Assembly (NCBI RefSeq): GCF_900114035.1
Contig: NZ_FORP01000011.1
Coordinates: forward strand, 1-64,000
Reading direction: 5' to 3'
DNA length: 64,000 nucleotides
Source: Amycolatopsis sacchari
Lineage (GTDB): Bacteria; Actinomycetota; Actinomycetes; Mycobacteriales; Pseudonocardiaceae
The number at the start of each line of letters is the position of its first letter. Position 1 is the first letter of the stretch. The notes beneath the pieces were generated by a model. The model was not told where the DNA came from and ran no database searches. It saw nothing but the letters and a program-made list of their open reading frames with translations. This document shows positions 27,725 to 39,656 of the stretch, one piece after another. The translations under genes and the position numbers were made by a program.

Positions 27725-28489
27725 GTGGACGGCGTGCCCGCTCCGGCCGGTCCCGGCCCTGACGAGAACCGGCAGGCGGCCCCCTACCGGCCCGGCTACG
27801 AACTGGTGGCCGAGCAGATCCTCCGGCTCATCGCGGAGCTCGACCTGCGCGCCGGTGACCGCATGCCGACCGAGAACGAGCTGGCCGCCCGCCTCGGCGC
27901 GTCGCGGACCGTGGTGCGGGAGGCGATCAAGATCCTGTCCGCGCTCGGGCGCGTCCGCGCGCAGAAGGGCCGGGGCCTCTACGTGGCCGACGACGAGGGG
28001 ATGCTCGGCTCGGCGCGGTGGTCGGGCTTCTTCCTGCCGACCGACCTGGACCACGTCTACATGCTGTTCGAGTTCCGGCGGGTGCAGGAGATGACCGCCA
28101 GCCGCCTCGCGGCGACGCGGGCCACCCCCGTCGAACTGCGGGCGATCGAAGCGGCCGCGGAGACCTGCCGCCAGGGACACCTCACCGGCGAAGCGGCCCT
28201 GTTCGACCGCGGGGACGAGGAGTTCCACCTCGGGATCGCGGCCGCGTCCCACAACCAGTTCCTGCTCGCCGCGGTACGGGAAGCGCGGCGGCTGCAGCAC
28301 CAGTCCAGCACCATCGGGCTCCACGGCACGGTCGGCGGCCACGCCGCCGAGGCGGTCGAGGAGCACGCCGCGATCTACCAGGCGATCCGGGACGGTGACC
28401 CGGAAGCCGCCGCACACGCCGCCGCGGTCCACCTCGACAATACCCTGGAGGACTACCGCCGCGAGATCCAGCGGCGGGTCTTCGGCTGA
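27725..28489 (+). CDS. GntR family regulator, FadR/FCD subfamily
   Basis: A 254-residue GntR regulator. The winged helix reads YELVAEQILRLIAELDLRAGDRMPTENELAARLGASRTVVREAIKILSALGRV. The all-helical FCD ligand domain follows, with DRGDEEFHLGIAAASHN and HAAIYQAIRDGD supplying the usual Asp/His metal ligands. Several in-frame starts exist, but the GTG at 27725 is chosen because GAAGGAGG lies 7-8 bp upstream. It is divergent from the sugar importer operon and probably represses it in response to a sugar acid or aldonate, the typical FCD ligands (inference). Confidence 0.92.
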   Translation: MDGVPAPAGPGPDENRQAAPYRPGYELVAEQILRLIAELDLRAGDRMPTENELAARLGASRTVVREAIKILSALGRVRAQKGRGLYVADDEGMLGSARWSGFFLPTDLDHVYMLFEFRRVQEMTASRLAATRATPVELRAIEAAAETCRQGHLTGEAALFDRGDEEFHLGIAAASHNQFLLAAVREARRLQHQSSTIGLHGTVGGHAAEAVEEHAAIYQAIRDGDPEAAAHAAAVHLDNTLEDYRREIQRRVFG

Positions 28490-28631
28490 CCGGCGTCGCG
28501 CGCCTGCCTTTTCATACACGATCACCGAGCCGTTCAGTCAGACCTGCCCGGCAATCGGGGGACGGGTACTTGTCCCGGGCCCGCACGGCTTTCACGCTGC
28601 TGTTGTTGGAAAACGACCGATTGGAGGCAGG
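28490..28631 (+). promoter_or_regulatory. Upstream region of the RiPP precursor gene
   Basis: A 142-bp gap between the GntR stop and the small peptide gene. It contains TCATACAC (28512-28519), identical to an element upstream of the GntR gene, a weak GGGAC/GTCCC hairpin near 28560, and TTGGAGG just before the ATG at 28632. A promoter for the peptide/P450 pair is expected here, but I cannot fix its boxes. Confidence 0.45.
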
Positions 28632-28712
28632 ATGAGCAAAATCATCTCCCGTGCGACCAAACGGATCTTCGGTATGGGCCGGATGGCGGGCCGCTACGTC
28701 TGGTACCACTGA
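28632..28712 (+). CDS. RiPP precursor peptide, atropopeptide/tryptorubin-like
   Basis: A 26-residue peptide. The N-terminal 20 residues are basic and helical-looking, with the segment ATKRIFGMGRMAG. The last six, RYVWYH, are almost all aromatic and end at the stop codon. TTGGAGG lies 5 bp before the ATG. A 14-bp perfect stem-loop and then a cytochrome P450 follow within 81 bp. A short basic leader, a C-terminal Trp/Tyr-rich hexapeptide and one P450 are the hallmark of atropopeptides (tryptorubin core AWYIWY), in which the P450 cross-links aromatic side chains. Here the core has Tyr-Val-Trp-Tyr and an unusual terminal His. No peptidase or exporter is adjacent. The product is inferred. Confidence 0.85.
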   Translation: MSKIISRATKRIFGMGRMAGRYVWYH

Positions 28713-28717
28713 CCGAC

Positions 28718-28759
28718 CGGCACGGGCCGGCTCGCCGTGCGGTGGGCCGGCCCGTGCCG
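28718..28759 (+). terminator. Attenuator stem-loop between precursor and P450
   Basis: CGGCACGGGCCGGC at 28718-28731 and GCCGGCCCGTGCCG at 28746-28759 are perfect complements, giving a 14-bp GC-rich stem with a 14-nt loop. It begins 6 bp after the peptide stop and ends 35 bp before the P450 start. No T-run follows, so partial termination or mRNA 3'-end protection is likely, giving more peptide than enzyme. Confidence 0.8.
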
Positions 28760-28793
28760 CGGGCCGTATATCCACTTCGGACAGGAGGCGGCG

Positions 28794-30119
28794 TTGACCG
28801 AGCACCTACCACCGGGACCGCGGGGACACCGGCTGCGGGGCAACCTCCCCCGCTACGAAGCCGACCGGCTCGGGTTCCTCCGGCGCTGCCAAGAGGAGTA
28901 CGGCGATTTCTGTTCCTTCGACGGGAACACGGTGGTCGTCAGCGATCCGGCGACGGTGCACGAGATCCTCGGCAAGACCAACGCGGAGTACCTCGCGGAG
29001 GGCACGCTGTTCGCCGGAGGGGACGACCTCGACGAGGCCGCGGAGCGCGCCGCGGTGTGGATGGCCGCCCGCCGCAAGGGATCGCGGGGTTTCAACCGCA
29101 GGGTCGCCACCGCGCACGCCGAACGCATGATCGGCATGCTCGACGAGCAGCTCGGCCGGGCCGGTTCGCAGACGGTCGACGTGCAGCCGCTGATGGCCCG
29201 CGTTTCCGGGTGCATGGTCGCGGACTACTGCTTCAGCGGCGAGGGCAGCGAACTGGTCGAGACCATCGAAGCCCAGGTGGCGGCCGCGATCCCCATCATG
29301 TCGGCGGCACGCGTGCTGCCCCGGTGGATGCCCGCGGCGAGGAACCGGCGTTTCGCCGCCGCCCGCCGCAGGACGATGGCCGCGATCGGCGGGATCGTCG
29401 ACCGGCGCCGCGCCCGCCCCGCCCCCGAGTCGCCCCGCGACCTGCTCGACGTCCTGCTGGCCGCCCGCGACCCCGAACTCACCCAGCACCAGATCGAAGA
29501 AGTGCTCAGGGTGACGTTGCTGGCTTCCTACGGCGTGCCCGGCACGACGCTCGCCTGGATCGTGCGCGAGCTGTCCTTCCGCCCGGACATCCAGGCCCGC
29601 GTCCAGGACGAGGCGACCGCGTGGGACGGGCGGGAAACCCCGCCGGAACTGGCGGAACTCCCTTACACGGAAGCGTTGGTGAAGGAGATCCTGCGCGCGT
29701 ACACGCCGACCTGGCTGATGGGGCGGACGGTGCGGGAGGAAGTTCGGGTCGGCTCGTGGACGCTGGCGCCGGGACGGCAGATCATGTTCTGCCCCTACCT
29801 CATCCACCGCGATCCGCGGTGGTGGGACGAGCCGGAGAAGATCGATCCCGGGCGCTGGCTCGGCGAGAAGGCGCCCCACGCACGCCACGCGTACTTCCCT
29901 TTCGGCGCCGGGCCTCGGACGTGTCTCGGTACCCACCTGGGCATGCTGCAGCTGACGCTCGTCACGTCGTGGCTGGCGCGGCGCTACGCCATCGCCGTCG
30001 AGACGCCGGGCACCGTTCCCGCCAGTCCCGCGGCCCTGCTGTCGCCGGCGGGCCTGCGTGCCTCGTTCGCCGTGCGGGAGCACGAGGACGCGGGGTTCGT
30101 CTCAGCGGGCGGCCGGTGA
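28794..30119 (+). CDS. Cytochrome P450, putative RiPP cross-linking enzyme
   Basis: A 441-residue soluble P450. The heme-binding loop is FGAGPRTCLGTH with the thiolate Cys near residue 377, the K-helix is KEILRAYTP (ExxR), and the I-helix reads ASYGVPGTTLAW. In that I-helix the usual acidic residue before Thr is Gly, which hints at non-hydroxylating radical coupling (inference). I choose the TTG at 28794 because AGGAGG lies 5 bp upstream and it gives the normal proline-rich LPPGPRGHRLRGNL start. It follows the aromatic-core peptide gene and the attenuator. No ferredoxin or reductase gene is adjacent, so redox partners must be shared. The likely role is C-C/C-N cross-linking of the Tyr/Trp side chains. 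Confidence 0.9.
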   Translation: MTEHLPPGPRGHRLRGNLPRYEADRLGFLRRCQEEYGDFCSFDGNTVVVSDPATVHEILGKTNAEYLAEGTLFAGGDDLDEAAERAAVWMAARRKGSRGFNRRVATAHAERMIGMLDEQLGRAGSQTVDVQPLMARVSGCMVADYCFSGEGSELVETIEAQVAAAIPIMSAARVLPRWMPAARNRRFAAARRRTMAAIGGIVDRRRARPAPESPRDLLDVLLAARDPELTQHQIEEVLRVTLLASYGVPGTTLAWIVRELSFRPDIQARVQDEATAWDGRETPPELAELPYTEALVKEILRAYTPTWLMGRTVREEVRVGSWTLAPGRQIMFCPYLIHRDPRWWDEPEKIDPGRWLGEKAPHARHAYFPFGAGPRTCLGTHLGMLQLTLVTSWLARRYAIAVETPGTVPASPAALLSPAGLRASFAVREHEDAGFVSAGGR

Positions 30120-30455
30120 GTCCGTCGGGCCGGATTTCCGCCACGGCGCCGAGCAACGCGGTGACGAACGCCGTGGTCGCGGGCGGGTCCGGCGGCTCGC
30201 CGTGGGCGGCCAGGTAGACGTGCCGCCGGAACTCCCCCACCTCGCTGGCTTCGATCCCCGGCGTGCGGTGGGTGCGCAGGGCGAGCCCCGCCATCGTGGT
30301 CACGCCCATGCCGGCCGCGACGAGCGCCTGCTGCACGATGGGGTCGTCGCCGGTGCAGGCGATGGACGGGACGAAGCCCGCCTTCGCACAGGCGCCCAGG
30401 AACTCGCGGCGGCAGTTCTCGCAGCCCGCGATCCGCGCCGCGTCGCGGTTGCCTC
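30118..30455 (-). pseudogene. LysR regulator C-terminal fragment
   Basis: The minus frame reads AGCENCRREFLGACAKAGFVP, then SIACTGDDPIVQQALVAAGMGV and LAAHGEPPDPPATTAFVTALL. This is the effector-domain end of a LysR-type regulator. An in-frame TGA lies just upstream at about 30455, and the HTH half is missing. The frame runs past the expected end into DNA antisense to the P450. It is a non-functional remnant. Confidence 0.75.
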
Positions 30456-30470
30456 ATCGACTAACAGGCG

Positions 30471-31005
30471 ATGTACGACGTCCTCCGCGACGCCCGTGAT
30501 GCGCTGGCCGGACGTGTCGTCGTCAACCTGAGTTCGGACACCCCGGCGCGGACACGGGAGGCCGCCGCGTGGCTCGCCGAGTGCGGGGTGTTCTACAGTG
30601 GACCGAGGGAGGCTTTCGAGGTCCACGAGCGGTGCTGCGGCACCTCGGCAGGCCGGAGTACCTGGGCGCGACCACGCGCTGGCGCAGCTGTTCTACCGGG
30701 CGCAGTTGACGATTTTCCTCACCGCGCTTTGCGCGTACCTGCAGGCGTTCGCCCTGCTGGACGCCGGGGGCACCGACCCGGCGCGGCTCGCGCCGTTCGC
30801 AAGGAGGTCACGCTACCCCGGCTACCTCAGCACGGCGACGATGATGGGCGCGACGGCGGCGCACATCGTGGGGACGTCCCGTGACCTCGGGGTGGACGCG
30901 GCGCTGCCCGAGGCGGTGAAGTCCTTGTACGGCAGGGCGATCAGCGCGGGGCATGGCGTGGAGAACTGGACCAGCCCATGGGAGGCGGTCGCGAAGCGGC
31001 GGTGA
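30471..31005 (+). pseudogene. NAD(P)-dependent imine reductase/6PGDH-like remnant
   Basis: The first frame shows MYDVLRDARDALAGRVVVNLSSDTPARTREAAAWLAECG, the end of a Rossmann domain of the beta-hydroxyacid dehydrogenase/imine reductase family. After shifts near 30600 and 30670, another frame gives DHALAQLFYRAQLTIFLTALCAYLQAFALLDAGG, and further on a C-terminal HGVENWTSPWEAVAKRR. The N-terminal dinucleotide motif is absent and at least two frameshifts are present, so this is decayed. Confidence 0.7.
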
Positions 31006-31068: not shown

Positions 31069-31938
31069 TTACGCGTTCGGCATCTCCGAGGCCGACACCA
31101 GGCTTTCCTGATCCACGCTGGGAGCAACACCCGCTTCCGCCAGCTGAGTGGTGAGAAACTCCACCACCGGCGCGCGTGTGCCCGGCGCGCTGTGCCCGAC
31201 GCCGGGCACCACGACCATGCGGACCGGGGATCCGTGCTGCGCAAGGCTTTCACGCAGGCGGGAGAGCTCCTCCGGGCGGCTGCGGCCGGCCCGGCCCATC
31301 GCGGCCAGGTCGGCCCTGCCGTCGTCCTCGGAGCCGACGACCAGCAGGACCGGGATCCGCGCAACCGCGGCGGGATCGACGGGAATCCCGAACCGCCGCT
31401 CGGTGTCGGCGATGCCCTCTGGCCAGTCGAGGGCCTCGTCGAGGACGGTGACGCTGCCCGGCGCGCCCACGGCGACGGCGATGACCCGGTCCGGGTGGAG
31501 GAAGAGGAAGCGGTTCGCGAACTGGCCGCCCCCGGAGTGCCCGCACAGCAGCACGCGGTCGGTCCGCGCGTGCCACCGGTGCCGGACCTCCTCCAGGATG
31601 TCCAGCACAACCAGGTCGAACCGGACGCCGCCGGAGTCGATCGTCTTGTAGTTGTCCACGTCGTCGGGGCCGTTGAGGCCGACCGGGAACAGCGGGACCA
31701 CGACGATGACGCCGTGCTCTTCCGCGAACGGGATGAACCCCTCACGCAGCTCCCCCACGCTGCGGCCCGTGCCGTGCACCGCCACCAGCACGGGCAGCTC
31801 GCTGTCCGGGGTCCAGCTCGTCGGGACGTAGACGCTGTAGCTGCACCGCGGATCCCGTGGCGCCACGAAGAACGGCGAACGCTTGGTCAGCAACCGCCGG
31901 CCGGGGTGGGTGGCGGGCAGGTCGGCGACGCGGATCAC
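31069..31938 (-). CDS. Alpha/beta hydrolase (esterase/PHB-depolymerase-like)
   Basis: A 289-residue alpha/beta hydrolase. The nucleophile elbow is LLCGHSGGGQFANRF. VLVAVHGTGRSVGELREGF holds the oxyanion-hole region, and the Asp (VVGSEDDGR) and His (VPGVGHSAPG) of the triad follow. There is no signal peptide. The GTG at 31938 overlaps the DUF4387 stop (GTGA at 31935-31938), so it is the last gene of the AtuA operon. It may hydrolyse an ester or thioester intermediate; the substrate is unknown. Confidence 0.88.
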   Translation of the reverse strand: MIRVADLPATHPGRRLLTKRSPFFVAPRDPRCSYSVYVPTSWTPDSELPVLVAVHGTGRSVGELREGFIPFAEEHGVIVVVPLFPVGLNGPDDVDNYKTIDSGGVRFDLVVLDILEEVRHRWHARTDRVLLCGHSGGGQFANRFLFLHPDRVIAVAVGAPGSVTVLDEALDWPEGIADTERRFGIPVDPAAVARIPVLLVVGSEDDGRADLAAMGRAGRSRPEELSRLRESLAQHGSPVRMVVVPGVGHSAPGTRAPVVEFLTTQLAEAGVAPSVDQESLVSASEMPNA

Positions 31939-32273
31939 GAGGCTTCTCCCCCGGCTCGGCCGGGCACGGACAGGCGCGCCAGGGGCACGTGGTGCTGGCC
32001 CGCGTGCACGTCGCGGTCCCGCAGCGAACCCTGGCTCACCGGACGCGGGAAGGAGATCTTCACGACGTTGAGCGACGGGATCCGGAACAGCTGCACCGAA
32101 TCCGCGTCGACGCGGTAGAGGTCCGCGACCACGCGTTCGTTCAAAAAGGACTCGTCCGCCGCGATCCGGTACCCCTCCTCGTCACGCAGGAACACCTCCA
32201 TCGTGACCCAGAACGGCCCGGCGTTTTTCGAACGGACCTCGTGGGCGAGGTCCGCGAGGGTGGTCTCAGGCAC
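31935..32273 (-). CDS. DUF4387 domain protein
   Basis: A 112-residue protein of the DUF4387 family, recognisable by LADLAHEVRSKNAGPFWVTMEVFL near the N-terminus and FNVVKISFPRP-like text (here LNVVKISFPRPVSQGSLRDRDVHAGQ). DUF4387 genes typically follow AtuA/DUF1446 genes or are fused to them, and that is the case here. The GTG start overlaps the AtuA 3' end by 8 bp. It probably acts as a small subunit of the same enzyme. No catalytic function is established. Confidence 0.85.
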   Translation of the reverse strand: MPETTLADLAHEVRSKNAGPFWVTMEVFLRDEEGYRIAADESFLNERVVADLYRVDADSVQLFRIPSLNVVKISFPRPVSQGSLRDRDVHAGQHHVPLARLSVPGRAGGEAS

Positions 32274-33654
32274 CGGTGCTCTCCATCTCGATCCGGAACA
32301 GTTCGGTGGGGTTGTCGCAGTCCACGACGTGGTTCAGCACGAACTCGTAGGCCGCGCCGCGCTCGACCTCGGCGGGTGACGACGCGAACGCCAGGCTCGG
32401 CAGATAGTCCATCCCGGGCGCGGGCAGGTGCAGCATCAACGGGTTGGCGACCTTCGCGACGGCCGTCGCGGTCGCCTGGTCGGGCGCGTTCACGAGCAGC
32501 ATCACGCCGACCTCGCGCGGCGGCCCGCTTTCGGGTTCCAGCTCGTCCAGCACCGCGTTGTACCCGTAGAGGCGGAGGTCGAAGGCGTACTCGTCGTCGG
32601 CCAGCCCCAGCGTCTGGCTCACGCGCTGCCGGAGGATCGTGTGCATCAGCTCCGCCCACGCGTCGAGGTCGGCGAGGATGAGCGGGTCCCGGATCGCGGA
32701 GAACGACATCGTTTCGTAGCCGGTGATCCGGGCGCCTTCCAGCTTGATCGTGTACTGGTCGGCCGCGTGGAACTTCGAGCCCTCGACCCGCACGATCCGG
32801 TCGTCGACCGCCGTGTAGCGCGCGTCGCGGACGTCGAGGGTGCCATCGGGTTCCCGCATTTCGAACGGGTTCACCGTCTCGTACAGCATGTGTGCGGCCA
32901 CGGTGGTCGGCGTGCAGGACACCGCCGGGTCCAACGGCTCGATGGTGAACCCGTCGGCGTCGATGGTCGCCAGCACCCCGCCCGCGCGCGGGTTGGTGGT
33001 GCACTGCCCACCGCACTCGACGATCTTCGCGGCGTGCCACGTGGGCCCCGGCGGCATCCCCTTCATCAGCGGGTACGCGGCCGCCAGCGCGGTGTCGGTG
33101 GCGCGGCCCGCGAGCACGACCTGCGCACCCGCGCGGAGTGCCTCGACGATCGGCTCGTGCCCCATCGCGCCGACGATGTGGGTGCAGCTTTCCAGCGTCT
33201 CCGCCCGCAGCTCCCCCAACGGCGGCAACGGGTGCACGCGGCCGGAGTCGAGGTATTCCTTCAGCACGGCCGAGTTCTGCTCGCTGTAGATCCGCGCGAC
33301 CTTGAGGTCCAGCCCCGCCTCCGCCATCACCTCCGCGACGATGCCGGCCACCCAGTCGACACCGCTGTCGGTCCCGCTCGTGCCGCAGGACCCCACGATC
33401 ACGGGGATGCCGGCCGCCGCGGCCGCCGTCAGCGCGCTGCGCAGGTCGCGCTTCACCGCCTTGGCGGTCGTCTTGGGGGACGCCGACCCGAGGTAGTGGG
33501 GGCCGGAGTCCGTGGACCCGCCGTCGATGCTGATCACGTCGGCGCCCAGCGCGATGCCGCGCTCGACCGTCGCGTGGTCCCAGCCCGCGCCGAGCATGCC
33601 GCTCGGCGTCAGCACGCGGACGGACTCCACCGGTTCGTTGTCCATGGTCCTCAT
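32266..33654 (-). CDS. AtuA-like acyclic terpene utilization family protein (DUF1446)
   Basis: A 462-residue protein of the AtuA/DUF1446 family. Family features are ADVISIDGGSTDSGPHYLG near the N-terminus, PVIVGSCGTSGTDSGVDW, LAGRATDTALAA and CGGQCTTNPRAGG. In pseudomonads AtuA belongs to citronellol/geraniol degradation, but many homologues lie in unrelated acid-degradation operons. Its ATG overlaps the hydroxyacid dehydrogenase stop (ATGA at 33651-33654). With the downstream DUF4387 gene it likely forms one enzyme. The reaction is unknown. Confidence 0.87.
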   Translation of the reverse strand: MRTMDNEPVESVRVLTPSGMLGAGWDHATVERGIALGADVISIDGGSTDSGPHYLGSASPKTTAKAVKRDLRSALTAAAAAGIPVIVGSCGTSGTDSGVDWVAGIVAEVMAEAGLDLKVARIYSEQNSAVLKEYLDSGRVHPLPPLGELRAETLESCTHIVGAMGHEPIVEALRAGAQVVLAGRATDTALAAAYPLMKGMPPGPTWHAAKIVECGGQCTTNPRAGGVLATIDADGFTIEPLDPAVSCTPTTVAAHMLYETVNPFEMREPDGTLDVRDARYTAVDDRIVRVEGSKFHAADQYTIKLEGARITGYETMSFSAIRDPLILADLDAWAELMHTILRQRVSQTLGLADDEYAFDLRLYGYNAVLDELEPESGPPREVGVMLLVNAPDQATATAVAKVANPLMLHLPAPGMDYLPSLAFASSPAEVERGAAYEFVLNHVVDCDNPTELFRIEMESTGA

Positions 33655-34622
33655 TTCTTTCCCTCGGCGATCAGGTCGGCGTTCACCGCGAACCGGGGAC
33701 GGCCCGCGAGTGCTGCCAGCAGTTCCTCCGCGCCCTGGAGTCCCGCCGTGGCACGGGCTTCGGCGGTCTGGCCCGCCAGGTGCGAGTAGACGACGATGCC
33801 GTCCACGCCCCGGAGCGGGCTGCCGGGCGGCAACGGCTCCTCGCGCGCGACGTCGAGCGCGGCACCCGCGATCTCGCCCGACCGCACCGCGGCGGCGAGC
33901 GCGTCCTCGTCGACGATGGCCCCGCGCGCGGTGTTGACGAGCAGCGCGGTCGGCTTCATCTGCTTGAAAGCGCTTTCGTCCAGCAGGCCCCTCGTCCGGT
34001 CCGTGAGCGACGTGTGGACGGAGACGTAGTCGGAAACGGCCAGCAGTTCCGGCAACTCCACGAACCGCACCTCGGCGCTGTCCCGCAGCTCCGGCGGCAC
34101 GGAGGTGGTACAGACCATGTGCATCCCGAAGGCTCGTGCCAACGGCACCACCGCCCGCGCCGCCGCGCCGTAGCCGATGAGGCCGAGCGTCGCGCCCCGC
34201 AGTTCGTGCCCGTCCTCGCGGGGCCAGATCCCGTTCGCCACGCCCTGCGCGGACTGCACCAGCCGCCGCGCCCCGGCGAGCAACAGGCCCATCGTGTACT
34301 CGGCGACGGCGTTGGCGTTGACACCGGGCAGGTTGCTCACGCTGATGCCCAGCTTCGCCGCGGCGACGGTGTCGATCGAGTCGTACCCGACGCCGGTGCG
34401 CACGATGGCGCGCAGCCGCGGCGCGCGGGCGAGGACGTCGGCCGTGAAGGGGTCGTGGCCCACCAGCGCGGCGTCGATCCCGTCCAGCGCCGCCTCGAGC
34501 TGTTCGGGGTCGCGGCGCCCGCTCGGGGGCTTGTGGACGGTGTCCAGGCCTGCCCGTCGCAGCAGCCGGTCGACCTCGTCGCCGGGGCGCAGGTAGTCCG
34601 TGGTGATGAGAACGCGGGGCAC
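33651..34622 (-). CDS. D-isomer-specific 2-hydroxyacid dehydrogenase
   Basis: A 323-residue NAD-dependent dehydrogenase of the phosphoglycerate/glyoxylate reductase family. The Rossmann loop is GLIGYGAAARAV. Catalytic residues appear as Arg in NTARGAIVDE, Glu in DVAREEPLPPGSPL and His in YSHLAGQT. A 2-hydroxyacid/2-ketoacid conversion fits an organic-acid operon with a tartrate/malate-type dehydrogenase and a transporter. It starts 13 bp after the MFS stop and overlaps AtuA. The exact substrate is unknown. Confidence 0.92.
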   Translation of the reverse strand: MPRVLITTDYLRPGDEVDRLLRRAGLDTVHKPPSGRRDPEQLEAALDGIDAALVGHDPFTADVLARAPRLRAIVRTGVGYDSIDTVAAAKLGISVSNLPGVNANAVAEYTMGLLLAGARRLVQSAQGVANGIWPREDGHELRGATLGLIGYGAAARAVVPLARAFGMHMVCTTSVPPELRDSAEVRFVELPELLAVSDYVSVHTSLTDRTRGLLDESAFKQMKPTALLVNTARGAIVDEDALAAAVRSGEIAGAALDVAREEPLPPGSPLRGVDGIVVYSHLAGQTAEARATAGLQGAEELLAALAGRPRFAVNADLIAEGKK

Positions 34623-34635
34623 GTCTTCCTCTCCC

Positions 34636-35907
34636 TCAAAGCGCCCGGCCGGTGGCGGACCGGCGCTGCAGCGCGCTGACCCGGGCGACGCCGAGCACCG
34701 CTACGAGCGCGACGATCGCGACGTCCAGCAGCATCAGGGGCCAGCCGGTCACGTCGACCATCGCGCCGACCAGTGCGGGCCCGAGGAACCCGCCGCTCGC
34801 CCAGCCCACGGTGTACAGCCCGGTGTAGGTCCCGACGACGCGGTCCGACGGGGCGAGGTTCCACAGCACGACGACCGCGTTGACCAGGAACGCGGACGCG
34901 GAGGCGGCCGCGAGGCACAGCGCGACCATGGCGCCGGTGGGGGTCCGGATCACCGTGCCCAGCACCATGGCCGCCGCGAACGCCGCCATCCCGATCATCA
35001 TCACGCGGAGCCGGCCGAAGCGTTCCGCGAGCATCGCGACCGGGTAGGCGGCGACGATGAAGGCCACGCCGCTGGGCAGCGTCAGCCCGCCCGCCTCCCC
35101 CGCGGACATGCCCAGCGCCTCCATGCCGTAGGGCGTGATGAGCGACCGCGAGGCGGCCCACGCGCCGCCGAAGAACAGGATGGACAGGATGAGCAGCAGC
35201 CTGCTCCGGTCGGAGTCCTTGATGATGTCGGGCACGATGTCCCGCACGCGGACGCGCACCCGCGACTCGGCGTGCTGCTCGCGGTCCTCGGCCAGCGCCG
35301 CCTGGTAGGCCGGGGACCGGCTGTCCCGCACCTTCAGCGCGAGCACGAGCACGGACACCACCATCAGGATCGACGGGATGGCGAACGACAGCCCCGGGTG
35401 GTCGTCGATCAGGAGGATGCTGATCAGCGCCGCCACGATCGCCGTGACGCTCGACGCGATCTTGACCGCCGCGTTGGCCCGGCTCCGCCGTTCGGGCGCG
35501 ATGAAGTCCGGCAGCAGCGCTTCGGCGATCGGCTTGAACGAGTTCGCGATCAGCGCGTAGGCGAACATCACCGCCACCAGCAGCGGCAGCGACGCCGCCA
35601 CGTGCGGGATGACGAGGAACAGCAGCGCCGCCACCGGCATCCCCACGACGAGGTAGGGCATCCGGCGGCCCCACGACGTCCGGGTGTTGTCCGACCGGTT
35701 GCCCATCCACGGCTGCACGAAGATGCCGAGCAGGTTGTCCATGCCCATCAGCAGGCCGATGAGCGCGGCGCTGGTGAGGTGCTGCCGCAGCAGCGGCGGG
35801 ACCTGGGACTCGTAGAGGTTCCAGGTCGACTCCTGGGCGAACACCGCCAGTGCCACGAAGAACGTGATCCGCCCCGTGCGGACGCGCTGAACGGTCGCTG
35901 TCGTCAT
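34636..35907 (-). CDS. MFS transporter
   Basis: A 423-residue major facilitator with twelve spans. The loop 2-3 motif appears as GNRSDNTRTSWGRRMPYL, which resembles the GPH/sugar-cation symporter or SLC45-like branch. The ATG at 35907 follows GGAGGAAAGG, and upstream MAGGKVAP is dropped. It is the first gene of the transcript after a 75-bp promoter gap that contains a GCTATAGC palindrome. It likely imports the acid or lactam used by this locus. Confidence 0.88.
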   Translation of the reverse strand: MTTATVQRVRTGRITFFVALAVFAQESTWNLYESQVPPLLRQHLTSAALIGLLMGMDNLLGIFVQPWMGNRSDNTRTSWGRRMPYLVVGMPVAALLFLVIPHVAASLPLLVAVMFAYALIANSFKPIAEALLPDFIAPERRSRANAAVKIASSVTAIVAALISILLIDDHPGLSFAIPSILMVVSVLVLALKVRDSRSPAYQAALAEDREQHAESRVRVRVRDIVPDIIKDSDRSRLLLILSILFFGGAWAASRSLITPYGMEALGMSAGEAGGLTLPSGVAFIVAAYPVAMLAERFGRLRVMMIGMAAFAAAMVLGTVIRTPTGAMVALCLAAASASAFLVNAVVVLWNLAPSDRVVGTYTGLYTVGWASGGFLGPALVGAMVDVTGWPLMLLDVAIVALVAVLGVARVSALQRRSATGRAL

Positions 35908-35982
35908 TGGCGCAACCTTTCCTCCCGCCACCGCCGAGGGTGGCGCTTACGCTATAGCAAAAGACTCATAGATTGCAATTAG
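35908..35982 (-). promoter_or_regulatory. Promoter gap with GCTATAGCAAA operator
   Basis: This AT-rich 75-bp gap lies between the hydantoinase stop and the MFS start. It contains the perfect palindrome GCTATAGC at 35951-35958 within GCTATAGCAAA (35951-35961). The identical 11-mer lies 27 bp upstream of the GntR gene at 45403, so that regulator is the best candidate to bind here and control the MFS-to-hydrolase genes. Confidence 0.65.
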
Positions 35983-38049
35983 CTATGCCATGGCAGATTC
36001 GAACTCGACCAGGAGCGTCAGGTCGTCGTCGACACGGATCCGGCACTCGGGCCCGAAGCAGCACGAGGACTCGCGCTCCTCGAAGACCGCGGGCCCGGTG
36101 ATCTCCGTGCCCGGTCGCAGCCGGTACCGGTCCCAGACTGTGGCCCGCAGCCAGCCGTGCCCGGGGATCCACACCTCACGCGTGCCCCGCCGCGGATCGC
36201 CGTCGAGCGGTTCGCACGCCAGGGAGACGTCGTGCCCCGGCAGCTGGGCCGAAAGCCGCCAGTTGACGACCTCCGCGGGGCCGCCGAGCGAACGCCCGAA
36301 CGTCGCGCGGTACGCCTGCTCGAAGGCGGCGTGCAGGTGGTCGAGGTCCAGCTCCCCGTCCGGCAGTGCGACCTCGATCTCAGACCCCTGCCCCAGGTAG
36401 CGCAGGTCGGCCGAGCGGCGGAACCGCACCTCCTCCGGCTTCTCGGGCCGCAGCACCGCGAGGGCCTGTGCGGCCATCTCCTCGTACGCGGCCGCGACCC
36501 TCGCGTCGTCCACTTCGGACAGTGCGGAGGGCAGGCTGCGTGCCTGGTCCACCGTCGGCGCGGCGACGAGGAAGCCGTAGGCCGACATGACCCCGGCCCG
36601 CATCGGCACGACGATCCGCCGGATCTTCAGCTGCTTCGCCAGACCGTAGGCGTGCACGGGGCCGGCCCCGCCGAACGCCACCAGCGCGAAGGCGGCGGGA
36701 TCCCGGCCCTGCTCGGACAGGTGCATCCGGGCGGCGGCGGCCATGCTCGCGGTCGCGACCTCGACGATCCCCGACGCGGCACCGACCCGGTCGAGCCCGA
36801 GCGGCTCCGCCACGTCCCGGTCCACCGCCTTGTGCACCTCCGCCGTCCGCAGCCGCATCTCGCCGCCGAGGAACGCGGCGGGGTCGAGGTAGCCGAGGAC
36901 GAGGTCCGCGTCCGTCACCGTGGGCCGTTCCCCGCCGCGGCCGTAGGCGACGGGCCCCGGCACGGAACCGGCGCTCCGCGGGCCGACCTTGAGCAGGCCC
37001 AGCGGATCGGGCGCGGCGATCGACCCGCCGCCCGAGCCGATCTCGATCATGTCCACGACCGTCAGCCGGACCGGCAGCCCCGAGCCCGGTTTGAACTTGT
37101 CGACGCGGCCCGCTTCGAAATCGTGCTTGCGGCGGGGTTCCCCACCGCTGACGACCGCGATCTTCGCCGTCGTGCCGCCCATGTCGAACGAGAGGACGTC
37201 GCTTTCGCCGAGGCGCCGTGCCACCGCCGCGGCCGCGATCGCGCCCGCCGCCGGCCCGGATTCGAGCAGGCGGACGGGGAACTCCTTCGCGTCCTCCACG
37301 GTCGTGATCCCGCCTGAAGACAACACGATGTGCAGCGGCGCGTCGATCCCCATCGCCAGCAGGTCGTCCCGCAGCGCGTCGAGGTACCGCGACATCAACG
37401 GCTGCACGTAGGCGTTGAGGCACGCGGTGCTCGCGCGCTCGTACTCGCCGAGCACGGGGGCGACCGCGCTGGACAGCGTGACCGGCAGCCCGGGGTGGGC
37501 CCGCGCCAGCAGCTCCCGCACGCGTCGTTCGTGGCGGCCGTCGCGGTAGGAGTGCAGGAACGCCACCGCCACCGCCTCGACGCCCCGCTCCAGCAGGTCC
37601 GCCACCTCCGCCAGCACCCCCGCCTCGTCCAGCGGTTCCAGCTCGGTGCCGTCGGAGCCGATGCGGCCGCCCACCCCGCGGCACAGGTGCCGGGGCACGA
37701 GCGGTTCGGCGGGACGGGCCAGGAGATCGGTGGTGTCGAACCTGATCTCCCTGGCCATCTCCAGGGTGTCGCGGAAGCCGCTCGTGGTAAGCAGGCCCAC
37801 GACCGCGCCAGTGCGTTCGAGCAGGGTGTTGGTCACCAGCGTCGTGCCGTGCACGACCGCGGCGACGGCCCCGGCGGGCGTGCCGGTTTCGGCCAGCAGC
37901 CGCGTGATCCCGGCGGTGATCGCCTCGTTGGGGGCGTCCGGGGTGGTGGGCAGCTTGCCGGGCCAGGTCAGGCCGCGAGCCGGGTCGTGCAGCAGCAGGT
38001 CGGTGAACGTGCCGCCCACGTCCACTCCGATGCGGACGGTGCGCTTCAT
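35983..38049 (-). CDS. hyuA: Hydantoinase/oxoprolinase subunit A (HyuA family)
   Basis: A 688-residue ATP-dependent hydantoinase A/5-oxoprolinase-N domain protein. It has the ASKHA-type nucleotide-binding segments IGVDVGGTFTDLLL, VVHGTTLVTNTLLER, SFDMGGTTAKIAVV and AFGGAGPVHAYGLAK, with the C-terminal hydantoinase domain. The ATG at 38049 overlaps the HyuB stop (ATGA at 38046-38049), so the two subunits are co-translated. Family members open lactam/hydantoin rings or carboxylate ketones with ATP. The substrate here is unknown; the operon's other enzymes point to an organic acid or lactam. Confidence 0.93.
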   Translation of the reverse strand: MKRTVRIGVDVGGTFTDLLLHDPARGLTWPGKLPTTPDAPNEAITAGITRLLAETGTPAGAVAAVVHGTTLVTNTLLERTGAVVGLLTTSGFRDTLEMAREIRFDTTDLLARPAEPLVPRHLCRGVGGRIGSDGTELEPLDEAGVLAEVADLLERGVEAVAVAFLHSYRDGRHERRVRELLARAHPGLPVTLSSAVAPVLGEYERASTACLNAYVQPLMSRYLDALRDDLLAMGIDAPLHIVLSSGGITTVEDAKEFPVRLLESGPAAGAIAAAAVARRLGESDVLSFDMGGTTAKIAVVSGGEPRRKHDFEAGRVDKFKPGSGLPVRLTVVDMIEIGSGGGSIAAPDPLGLLKVGPRSAGSVPGPVAYGRGGERPTVTDADLVLGYLDPAAFLGGEMRLRTAEVHKAVDRDVAEPLGLDRVGAASGIVEVATASMAAAARMHLSEQGRDPAAFALVAFGGAGPVHAYGLAKQLKIRRIVVPMRAGVMSAYGFLVAAPTVDQARSLPSALSEVDDARVAAAYEEMAAQALAVLRPEKPEEVRFRRSADLRYLGQGSEIEVALPDGELDLDHLHAAFEQAYRATFGRSLGGPAEVVNWRLSAQLPGHDVSLACEPLDGDPRRGTREVWIPGHGWLRATVWDRYRLRPGTEITGPAVFEERESSCCFGPECRIRVDDDLTLLVEFESAMA

Positions 38050-39656
38050 CGGACGTACCCACCGATCTCGTCGGCCAGCACGAGTTCCGGCTCGCGGTCC
38101 TCCGGCGCGCCGTAGCCCCCGCCGCCGGGGAAGGAGATCACGACGGAAGCACCGGGCGCGAGCTGCGAGATCGACTTCAGCGGCACGCGTTTGCCGTTGT
38201 CGAGCACCACCTGCGCGGTGGCGCCGGGTTCGCCGCCGGCGAGCCCGAGCGCGGGGTGCCGTTCGCGGTCGCCGAGCAGCACCAGCTGCACCGGGCGGCT
38301 CGTCGGGTTGTGCACCTCGATCTCCTGCCCCAGCCCGCCGCGGCGCCGCCCGCGGCCGCCGGATCCGGCCCGGAGTTCCTTGCGTGCGAACCGGAGCGGC
38401 GAAGCGACCTCCATCGCCTCGACACTGCCGCTGCCGGAGTTGGTCGGGAAGGCCGTGGCCGACAGGCCGTCCTTCTCCTTGGACGCGCCCATACCGCCGT
38501 TGGCGAAGAGCATCTGGGCGAACGGGCGCCCGGCGTCGTCGACCCCGGCGAAGCGGACCCGCAACGCGGGCGCTCCCCCGCTGTCGGCGATGACCCGGTC
38601 GGGCAGCACCGGCGCGAGCGCCTGGTAGATCGCACACGAGAGCAGGTGCCCGGTCAGGTGGCGCGCGACGACGGGCGCGGGGAACCGCGGGTTGACGATG
38701 CTGCCTTCGGGGGCCGTCACGCTGATGGCCCGGTAGGAGCCCCAGTTCGTGCGCGTCGCCGGGTCCAGCAGGATCTTCAGCGGGTACATCGAGTACGCGC
38801 GGGTGTAGTTCAGCGTGGAGTTCGTGGAGAACGGCACCTGGCCCGAGGTTCCCGTGTAGTCGATCTCGATGCGGTCGCCGCGCACGGTGACCGCGCATTC
38901 GATGCGCGTCGGATGGCCTTCGACGCCGTCGGCGTCCAGGCCCGCCCGGTACACCCCGTCCGGCAGCTCGCGGATCGCCGCGCGCATCGCCGCGTCGGTC
39001 ATCGCGTGCACCTGCGCCGCGAACTCCTCGAAGTCCGCTTCGCCGAAGTCGTCGAGGAACTCCCGCGCCCGGCGTCCGCACACGGCGTGCGCGGCGGCCT
39101 GCGCCTCCAGGTCACCCCACAGGTCGTCAGCGAGGCGGACGTTGGCCAGCAGCAGATCCTTGACCCCCTGTTCGAGCCGGCCCGCGCGGTACAGCCGCAC
39201 GGGCGGGATCAGCAGGCCCTCGGACATCAGGTCCGTGGCCCCCATCGACGGGCTGCCGCCGATGTCGGGCGAATGCGCCGCGGTACCGGCGAAAGCGACG
39301 AGCGCACCGCGGTGGAAGACCGGGGTGATCATGGCGATGTCGGGCAGGTGGCCGGTGGCGATCCACGGGTCGTTGGTGATGACGCAGTCGCCGTCCTGCC
39401 ACTCCTCGTGCGGGAACCGGTCCAGGATCACGGCGGTCAGCGAGCTCATGAGCGCGGCGAACCCCGGGATGCCCGCACGGGACTCGGCCATCGTGCGGCC
39501 CTGGCGGTCCATCAGGACGACGGTGTAGTCGTTCGACTCGCGGATGATGGTGGAGAACGCGGTGCGCAGCATGGTCGACGCCGCCTCGTCGGTGGCGGCG
39601 GCCAGCCGGTCCCACCGTACTTCGAGCCCCACCGGGTCGGGCACGGGCGCGTTCAC
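38046..39656 (-). CDS. hyuB: Hydantoinase/oxoprolinase subunit B (HyuB family)
   Basis: A 536-residue hydantoinase-B/oxoprolinase domain. Typical text is FSTIIRESNDYTVVLMDRQGRTMAES, DGDCVITNDPWIATGHLPDIAM, and the C-terminal VISFPGGGGYGAPEDRE. A poly-Gly/Arg stretch (GSGGRGRRRGGLG) lies before the last domain. The GTG at 39656 overlaps the dehydrogenase stop (GTGA). It forms the second subunit of the HyuAB enzyme with the next gene. Confidence 0.93.
   Translation of the reverse strand: MNAPVPDPVGLEVRWDRLAAATDEAASTMLRTAFSTIIRESNDYTVVLMDRQGRTMAESRAGIPGFAALMSSLTAVILDRFPHEEWQDGDCVITNDPWIATGHLPDIAMITPVFHRGALVAFAGTAAHSPDIGGSPSMGATDLMSEGLLIPPVRLYRAGRLEQGVKDLLLANVRLADDLWGDLEAQAAAHAVCGRRAREFLDDFGEADFEEFAAQVHAMTDAAMRAAIRELPDGVYRAGLDADGVEGHPTRIECAVTVRGDRIEIDYTGTSGQVPFSTNSTLNYTRAYSMYPLKILLDPATRTNWGSYRAISVTAPEGSIVNPRFPAPVVARHLTGHLLSCAIYQALAPVLPDRVIADSGGAPALRVRFAGVDDAGRPFAQMLFANGGMGASKEKDGLSATAFPTNSGSGSVEAMEVASPLRFARKELRAGSGGRGRRRGGLGQEIEVHNPTSRPVQLVLLGDRERHPALGLAGGEPGATAQVVLDNGKRVPLKSISQLAPGASVVISFPGGGGYGAPEDREPELVLADEIGGYVR

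Follow-up and report, generated by a model that had tools for sequence, protein, structure and literature searches.

A 64,000-nucleotide stretch of DNA from Amycolatopsis sacchari (contig NZ_FORP01000011.1, positions 1 to 64,000; hereafter the window) carries, at 28632 to 30119 on the plus strand, a 26-codon gene followed by a cytochrome P450 gene. We conclude that this pair is probably a self-contained two-gene cassette for a P450-modified, ribosomally synthesized and post-translationally modified peptide (RiPP) of the cyptide kind, whose product would carry a biaryl link between Tyr22 and Trp24 (i,i+2 spacing). The cyptides have been proposed as a superfamily, with the atropopeptides among its members (PMC11450843; this and the other papers below are cited from excerpts of their text). 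Two traits by which cyptides are recognized were found: a short precursor gene is conserved next to the P450, and the aromatic residues of the C-terminal core are conserved across the 16 precursors aligned here, with four divergent precursors departing from the pattern. A first-pass annotation of the window had proposed a peptide frame beside a lone P450 that likely encodes a side-chain cross-linked RiPP, a proposal with which the conserved pairing of peptide and P450 in relatives agrees. The features concerned are as follows.

28632..28712, plus strand: precursor peptide gene, 26 amino acids (sequence, neighbourhood comparison, profile scan, alignment, pN/pS)
28623..28627, plus strand: ribosome-binding site GGAGG of the precursor gene (sequence)
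28692..28709, plus strand: codons R21-Y22-V23-W24-Y25-H26, Y22 and W24 being the family-conserved aromatic pair (alignment)
28794..30119, plus strand: cytochrome P450, 441 amino acids, TTG start (sequence, Pfam, ortholog start, motif alignment)
28784..28788, plus strand: ribosome-binding site GGAGG of the P450 gene (sequence)

The precursor gene and its family

The small gene translates as MSKIISRATKRIFGMGRMAGRYVWYH, 26 codons followed by a stop, and divides at a predicted core boundary into a basic leader (residues 1-20, ending R-M-A-G) and a C-terminal RYVWYH (residues 21-26). Its end lies 81 bases from the P450 start on the same strand. The precursor matches no family in Pfam or NCBIfam, and a promoter scan of 28480-28800 returned no sigma-70-type site.

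Short frames are common, and this one might be a chance reading beside an ordinary enzyme, a possibility that we regard as close to negligible. It is the sole frame of 15-45 amino acids, on either strand of the 64 kb, that combines a ribosome-binding-site match with at least three W/Y/H among the last five residues, and at the stricter four-of-five threshold each of 20 first-order Markov shuffles yielded 0 frames. The peptide is conserved beside orthologs of the P450, with a ratio of nonsynonymous to synonymous polymorphism (pN/pS) of 0.00-0.46, below 0.5 in 8/8 ortholog precursor pairs (picked among 10 sequences, several pairs sharing a sequence), and by this measure the precursor is under purifying selection. 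The shuffles, the pN/pS values and the P450-linked matches of the precursor-only searches below rule the chance reading out, and the initial description of a tiny gene with a good ribosome site (GGAGG, 28623-28627) is upheld by the conserved frame and the selection acting on it.

That annotation had further staked its reading on the peptide frame recurring beside P450 genes in relatives, and it does so in several actinobacterial families: orthologs with a matching adjoining precursor occur in Saccharopolyspora, Dactylosporangium, Nonomuraea, Catellatospora and others. The frame adjoining the closest ortholog (70% identity) is MSRFFSRMSKRFFGAGRMAGRYPYY; further small frames upstream of close P450s read MKSYLRHITARLFGKTRMGGFYTYWISTN and MKHLRHLAARVLGSTRMGGFYTYWDIAN, the Dactylosporangium sucinum precursor ends RYIWIP, and that of Nonomuraea cavernae is MRKLAYRTATLIGLNNGKMGGRYWWFH. 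The last of these (L066, 4819-4902; L and G numbers are our handles for loci and genomes) ends RYWWFH, the same Y-x-W-aromatic-H ending as in the window, on a different sub-branch of the P450 tree.

In an alignment of 16 precursors (A2; rows chosen by us, leaving out the near-duplicates L038/L039 as well as L042, L043, L047 and L069), Met1, Gly20 and Tyr22 never vary and position 24 is occupied by Trp or Tyr in 16/16, which gives the consensus G20-x-Y22-x-[W/Y]24. Residue 21 varies (R, F, L or S), so that Arg21 does not define the core; position 25 holds an aromatic residue in 12/16 precursors, the exceptions being L053, L065, L146 and L048. Since Tyr22 and an aromatic residue 24 are what the precursors conserve, the reaction that they share should join residues 22 and 24.

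We then asked how closely the peptide is tied to this P450 across genomes. A profile of 13 precursors detected nothing below E=0.7 in 72 loci (L071-L142) that carry other P450s, and recovered precursors outside it at L068 (E=1.1e-8), L144 (3.7e-8) and L146 (9.1e-7); the 13 came from P450 neighbourhoods, so that their own scores are circular, and L068, L144, L146, L160 and L161 were each found with a profile that does not contain them. Searching with A2 for the precursor only, in 150 genomes of the taxonomic family of G755, gave strong matches at three loci (E 1.7e-11 to 3.2e-9) and weak matches at five (E 0.006-0.031). All three strong matches (3/3) adjoin a P450 of the family under study, two of them new (about 39% identity) and the third that of G755 (48%; its peptide is in the query), and at the five weak matches tblastn detected no P450 (5/5 loci). 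In 297 genomes of the window's own taxonomic family, every match at E<=1e-3 (9/9) has a family P450 at most 1.2 kb away, although seven of the nine peptides were already in the query, the peptide of G347 is that of G362, and that of G372 is one residue from that of G373, both G362 and G373 being in the query; the informative part of this search is the lack of matches elsewhere, and G159, G117, G182, G240, G173 and G106 either escaped the search or were not among the genomes sampled. A precursor profile search of 40 genomes of genus g134 gave no match.

Counting weak candidates, a precursor was found for 23 of the 26 family P450s. One weak case is L048 / L152 (G218), where the candidate MARTVLRKIRRTLRMGGRYTWTCAH, ending RYTWTCAH, lies about 1.2 kb downstream of the P450, not upstream, and scores E=0.24 in a scan with a profile that does not contain it. 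At L153 and L069, in two genomes, precursors upstream of the P450 end RMAGAYTGPYAVQSKCG, with Y-x-x-x-Y spacing and a common C-terminal Cys-Gly tail.

The P450 clade and its active site

The P450 gene matches Pfam p450 at E=2.6e-52, and its frame ends at 30119, as the first-pass annotation had read. Its start is most plausibly the TTG at 28794, because GGAGG precedes it at 28784-28788 and the 70% ortholog has a TTG behind AGGAGG in the same place; an alternative GTG at 28737, taken from the open reading frame list, would fall within an intergenic hairpin described below.

Close relatives of the enzyme are few. Among 390 genomes of the window's taxonomic family, 53 reach E<=1e-45, that of the window among them, and about a dozen of these are close: one P450 at 70% identity, seven at 45-49%, then 41% and less, together with a further, broken copy that is 50% identical along part of its sequence. 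Samples drawn more widely added little, with four P450s passing E<=1e-58 in 298 genomes of the order (one new, G458) and two passing E<=1e-55 in 394 genomes of the class (one new, G755). A scan of the contigs of named genomes with the single window P450 as query gave no match; with an alignment of P450s (A1) as query, the contig scan gave at least 80 loci, eight of which, among those listed (L063-L070), are close kin. The named genomes contributed Streptomyces sp. SID13031, Dactylosporangium sucinum, Nonomuraea cavernae, Catellatospora sp. KI3 and Streptomycetaceae MP113-05, and plasmid searches returned distant P450s only, in 3 records each. In Saccharopolyspora subtropica (L045 / L070) a P450 of the family type is partial and broken by stops, and scans found no precursor beside it, so that the cassette of this species is apparently in decay.

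In a tree of 61 P450s that we chose from the collected loci, built by a quick method with the Shimodaira-Hasegawa-like approximate likelihood ratio test (SH-aLRT) as its only support measure, a branch supported at 99 unites 25 rows, among them the window and 18 of the 19 rows with a strong precursor. The other seven rows of this branch are labelled weak (three) or none (four); L044 is labelled none though the same locus, as L069, has a candidate, and the tree omits the broken P450 L045/L070 and near-duplicates. In a second tree, which omits eight long or divergent rows (L147_neighbour, L048, L053, L050, L046, L008, L010 and L013), 23/23 family rows fall on one side of a branch supported at 95 and 29/29 ordinary rows on one side of a branch supported at 92. 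The original annotation would have fallen had the enzyme grouped with ordinary hydroxylases, and in both trees the window P450 stands apart from the ordinary P450s sampled.

The active site sets the clade apart as well. The heme ligand Cys377 and the ExxR motif (E298, R301) of the window P450 are intact, and its I-helix reads G247-V248-P249 at a place where ordinary rows mostly have AGHETT and family rows ASYGVP or similar. At the acid position Glu occurs in 29/34 other rows and Gly in 22/26 family rows; at the alcohol position Thr occurs in 34/34 other rows and Val in 21/26 family rows; and the Pro just after this pair (Pro249 in the window) occurs in 26/26 family P450s and 0/34 others, L050, which lies outside the family, being counted among the 34. 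Without the acid-alcohol pair, a P450 is expected to lean towards radical coupling rather than oxygen transfer. Sequence and fold searches of the PDB returned general P450s among the matches listed, the best being CYP184A1; an AlphaFold model of the enzyme is of moderate confidence (predicted local distance difference test score, pLDDT, 70.8), and we argue no mechanism from it.

Predicted product, intergenic hairpin and surroundings

We propose that the basic leader (residues 1-20) would bind the P450 and thread the C-terminus into the heme pocket, where the enzyme would oxidise Tyr22 and couple it to Trp24, giving a strained Tyr-Val-Trp biaryl ring with loss of 2 H. A second coupling (loss of 4 H) may involve Tyr25 and His26. 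Removal of the leader would then fall to a host protease; we propose a host enzyme because no clear protease gene was found among the neighbouring genes scanned.

Several observations weigh against this scheme. A product has yet to be seen and the sequence does not reveal the type of bond; the missing acid-alcohol pair is compatible with coupling without proving it. Two family P450s (L043 and L044) retain the I-helix Thr and one (L049) the Glu of the acid position. Four precursors of the clade are divergent, stand outside the alignment and do not follow the i,i+2 pattern: L043 and L069 end AYTGPY (AYTGPYAVQSKCG), L047 ends GVYIPVWYW and L042 ends VYHHYIY. No precursor came to light for 3/26 family P450s (L046, L049, L051). 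The long-branched L053 sits just beyond the branch supported at 99, its union with the other 25 rows being supported at 42. A P450 outside the family (L050 / L157, G107) has an upstream frame, MRKALLAVAVFAGVARKDRLTAPYVYY, ending APYVYY, which is possibly another P450-RiPP pair of a different kind. Finally, the 18 other genomes of the genus hold no close homolog of the P450, the best match reaching 27% identity (E=6.3e-33).

The enzyme might instead hydroxylate or otherwise oxidise the peptide or a small molecule without forming a cross-link, its pairing with the peptide being regulatory. We judge this very unlikely. P450s are mostly monooxygenases, and three family members retain one half of the acid-alcohol pair, as listed above; the P450 of roseovertin also hydroxylates Trp (PMC11002830). 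The window enzyme, however, is without the I-helix pair used for oxygen transfer, the paired aromatic residues of the peptide are conserved, and no gene travels with the two genes in the neighbours examined.

A cross-link whose main partner is His26 is harder to set aside, if still unlikely: the RiPP would be of the same kind, the bond would run Trp24-His26, Tyr25-His26 or Tyr22-His26, and the Tyr22-Trp24 ring would be absent or secondary. A C-terminal His stands in the same place in the distant Nonomuraea peptide and also ends the L048 candidate, and Tyr-x-His and Trp-His links are described elsewhere (PMC13417212, PMC11002830). Against this, the nearest ortholog (70%) ends RYPYY, without His, and it is Tyr22 and the aromatic residue 24, not His, that the family conserves, which leaves the Tyr22-Trp24 link as our preferred reading.

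We also entertain, as a rather doubtful extension of that reading, that the pair belongs to a cyptide family of its own, as yet uncatalogued. Its marks would be a leader that closes with (R/K/Q)-M-(A/G)-G or R-V-S-G, a core of the form Y-x-(W/Y), and a P450 with mostly G-V-P in its I-helix where the oxygen-activating pair would otherwise stand. The window product would then be bicyclic, one enzyme making both the Tyr22-Trp24 link and a second bond via Tyr25 or His26.

Between the two genes lies a further element.

28718..28759, plus strand: 19-bp GC-rich stem-loop between precursor and P450 (folding; also a self-inverted match)

Its arms (28718-28736 and 28741-28759) fold at -49.4 kcal/mol (z -4.9). 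The intergenic region of relatives has a negative z (-1.0 to -5.4) in 12/16 loci, five of them below -3.6, and the signal is absent in L034, L067, L068 and L144; the test covered 16 of 18 loci, L168 and L169 being omitted with precursor and P450 almost touching. Hairpins between precursor and enzyme genes are common in RiPP operons, and this one is likely a partial terminator or mRNA stabiliser, through which more precursor than enzyme would probably be made.

The genes that flank the pair differ from one examined relative to another. In the window, those upstream are an ATP-binding cassette transporter (two permeases and a binding protein) and a GntR/FCD regulator. After the P450, at 30120-31005, comes gene debris with broken frames: part of a LysR substrate-binding domain on the minus strand (E=1.2e-9) and the C-terminal part of a reductive-aminase-like enzyme on the plus strand (E=1e-31). 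The debris is followed on the minus strand (31069-39081) by genes for an alpha/beta hydrolase, DUF4387, AtuA, a 2-hydroxyacid dehydrogenase, a major facilitator superfamily (MFS) transporter and hydantoinase A. The hydrolase assignment (31069-31938) is weak, its best match being Peptidase_S9, below the Pfam cut-off. Elsewhere the pair adjoins allantoicase and amidohydrolase genes (G159), or lies between a haloacid dehalogenase (HAD) hydrolase and a TetR regulator (S. shandongensis) or between MFS and glutamine synthetase genes (Dactylosporangium), with a MauE-like gene next to it in Nonomuraea and a methyltransferase gene in Streptomyces sp. SID13031. No neighbour recurs among the ten proteins of five loci and the one of L067 that we compared.

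Relation to known cross-linked peptides

The first-pass annotation had assigned the locus to the atropopeptides (tryptorubin A and kin), with which it shares the two-gene layout, the basic leader and the aromatic C-terminal hexapeptide. On this reading a tryptorubin-type P450 would install two or three links in RYVWYH, which we consider highly improbable. Atropopeptides are tied to a KSLK-type leader motif, and Trp2 is their only conserved core residue (PMC11450843). Neither KSLK nor a variant given in the consulted part of that paper is present in the window leader, and core position 2 is held by Tyr22, not Trp. A control locus, L147, found by the tryptorubin core AWYIWY in 1 of 394 genomes, has a precursor, KSLKASAWYIWY, that does carry a KSLK-type motif, and its P450 is hardly alignable with that of the window (30% over 90 residues, 48 bits, a lower score being reached by one of the 60 other rows only). 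This single tryptorubin-type reference, on a branch of 5.4-5.6 in the trees, lies outside the family branch in both (supported at 99 and 95). It also gives the atropopeptide reading some support: in the 61-row tree this one long-branched P450 (branch 5.36) sits on the family's side of a fork supported at 94, and in the second tree no row is closer to it by path than the window (7.16, vs 7.31 to the nearest ordinary P450), so that a deep common origin of the window clade and the tryptorubin-type P450, as read from these trees, is possible. Membership in the atropopeptides was rejected on the motif and the core position, the P450, by comparison with one reference, not being close.

Beyond the atropopeptides, a review credits the cyptide authors with 19 novel gene clusters (PMC12299652), and 787 P450s are cited for their other classes (PMC13417212). 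Links between Tyr(i) and Trp(i+2) are described for micitide and lapparbin (PMC11002830, PMC13250620, PMC13383641, PMC12352619) and, within a tripeptide, for pseudosporamide, Ac-Tyr-Pro-Trp (PMC7277628), and the title of a cited work presents MpoB as a YPW-linking P450. Histidine couplings are on record too, from Tyr to His in the biarylitides, which have precursors such as MRYVH (PMC13417212, PMC11450843), and from Trp to His N-tau by the P450 SroB of roseovertin (PMC11002830). The chemistry predicted for the window thus has precedent, and the earlier suggestion that its His offers a new coupling site does not survive, as both of these systems already couple His. What is new, as far as our literature searches reach, is the type of leader and the core: RYVWYH, YVWYH, FYTYW, FYVYW, RMGGFY and RMAGRY occur in no relevant open-licence main text searched (supplementary tables were not covered).

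P450-cross-linked peptides are valued as compact, rigid peptide scaffolds, and to this class the locus adds a type of leader, the core RYVWYH and a clade of P450s whose active site is unusual. The natural cores found beside this one clade (YVWYH, YPYY, YTYW, YIWIP, YWWFH, YPYWFYNYQ and YTGPYAVQSKCG) form a panel for studying the choice of partner residue, and the Gly-Val-Pro I-helix makes directly testable how coupling P450s avoid oxygen transfer.

The pair is a relative of known systems, not a new principle. Judged from published descriptions, it resembles micitide 982 (MciB) and lapparbin (SlpB) in joining a precursor to a P450 and in its Tyr-x-Trp spacing, which pseudosporamide shares, and differs from all three in the Tyr25-His26 that follows its Tyr-Val-Trp unit. 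Roseovertin has a P450-made Trp-His coupling, set at Trp(i)-His(i+3), whereas Trp24 and His26 of the window are spaced i,i+2. With the biarylitides, again as described, it has in common the R-Y-x-aromatic core logic and His as a coupling partner, a possible one in the window, but a biarylitide precursor counts five residues with a two-residue leader (PMC13417212), and the 26 residues of the window peptide place it outside that five-residue definition.

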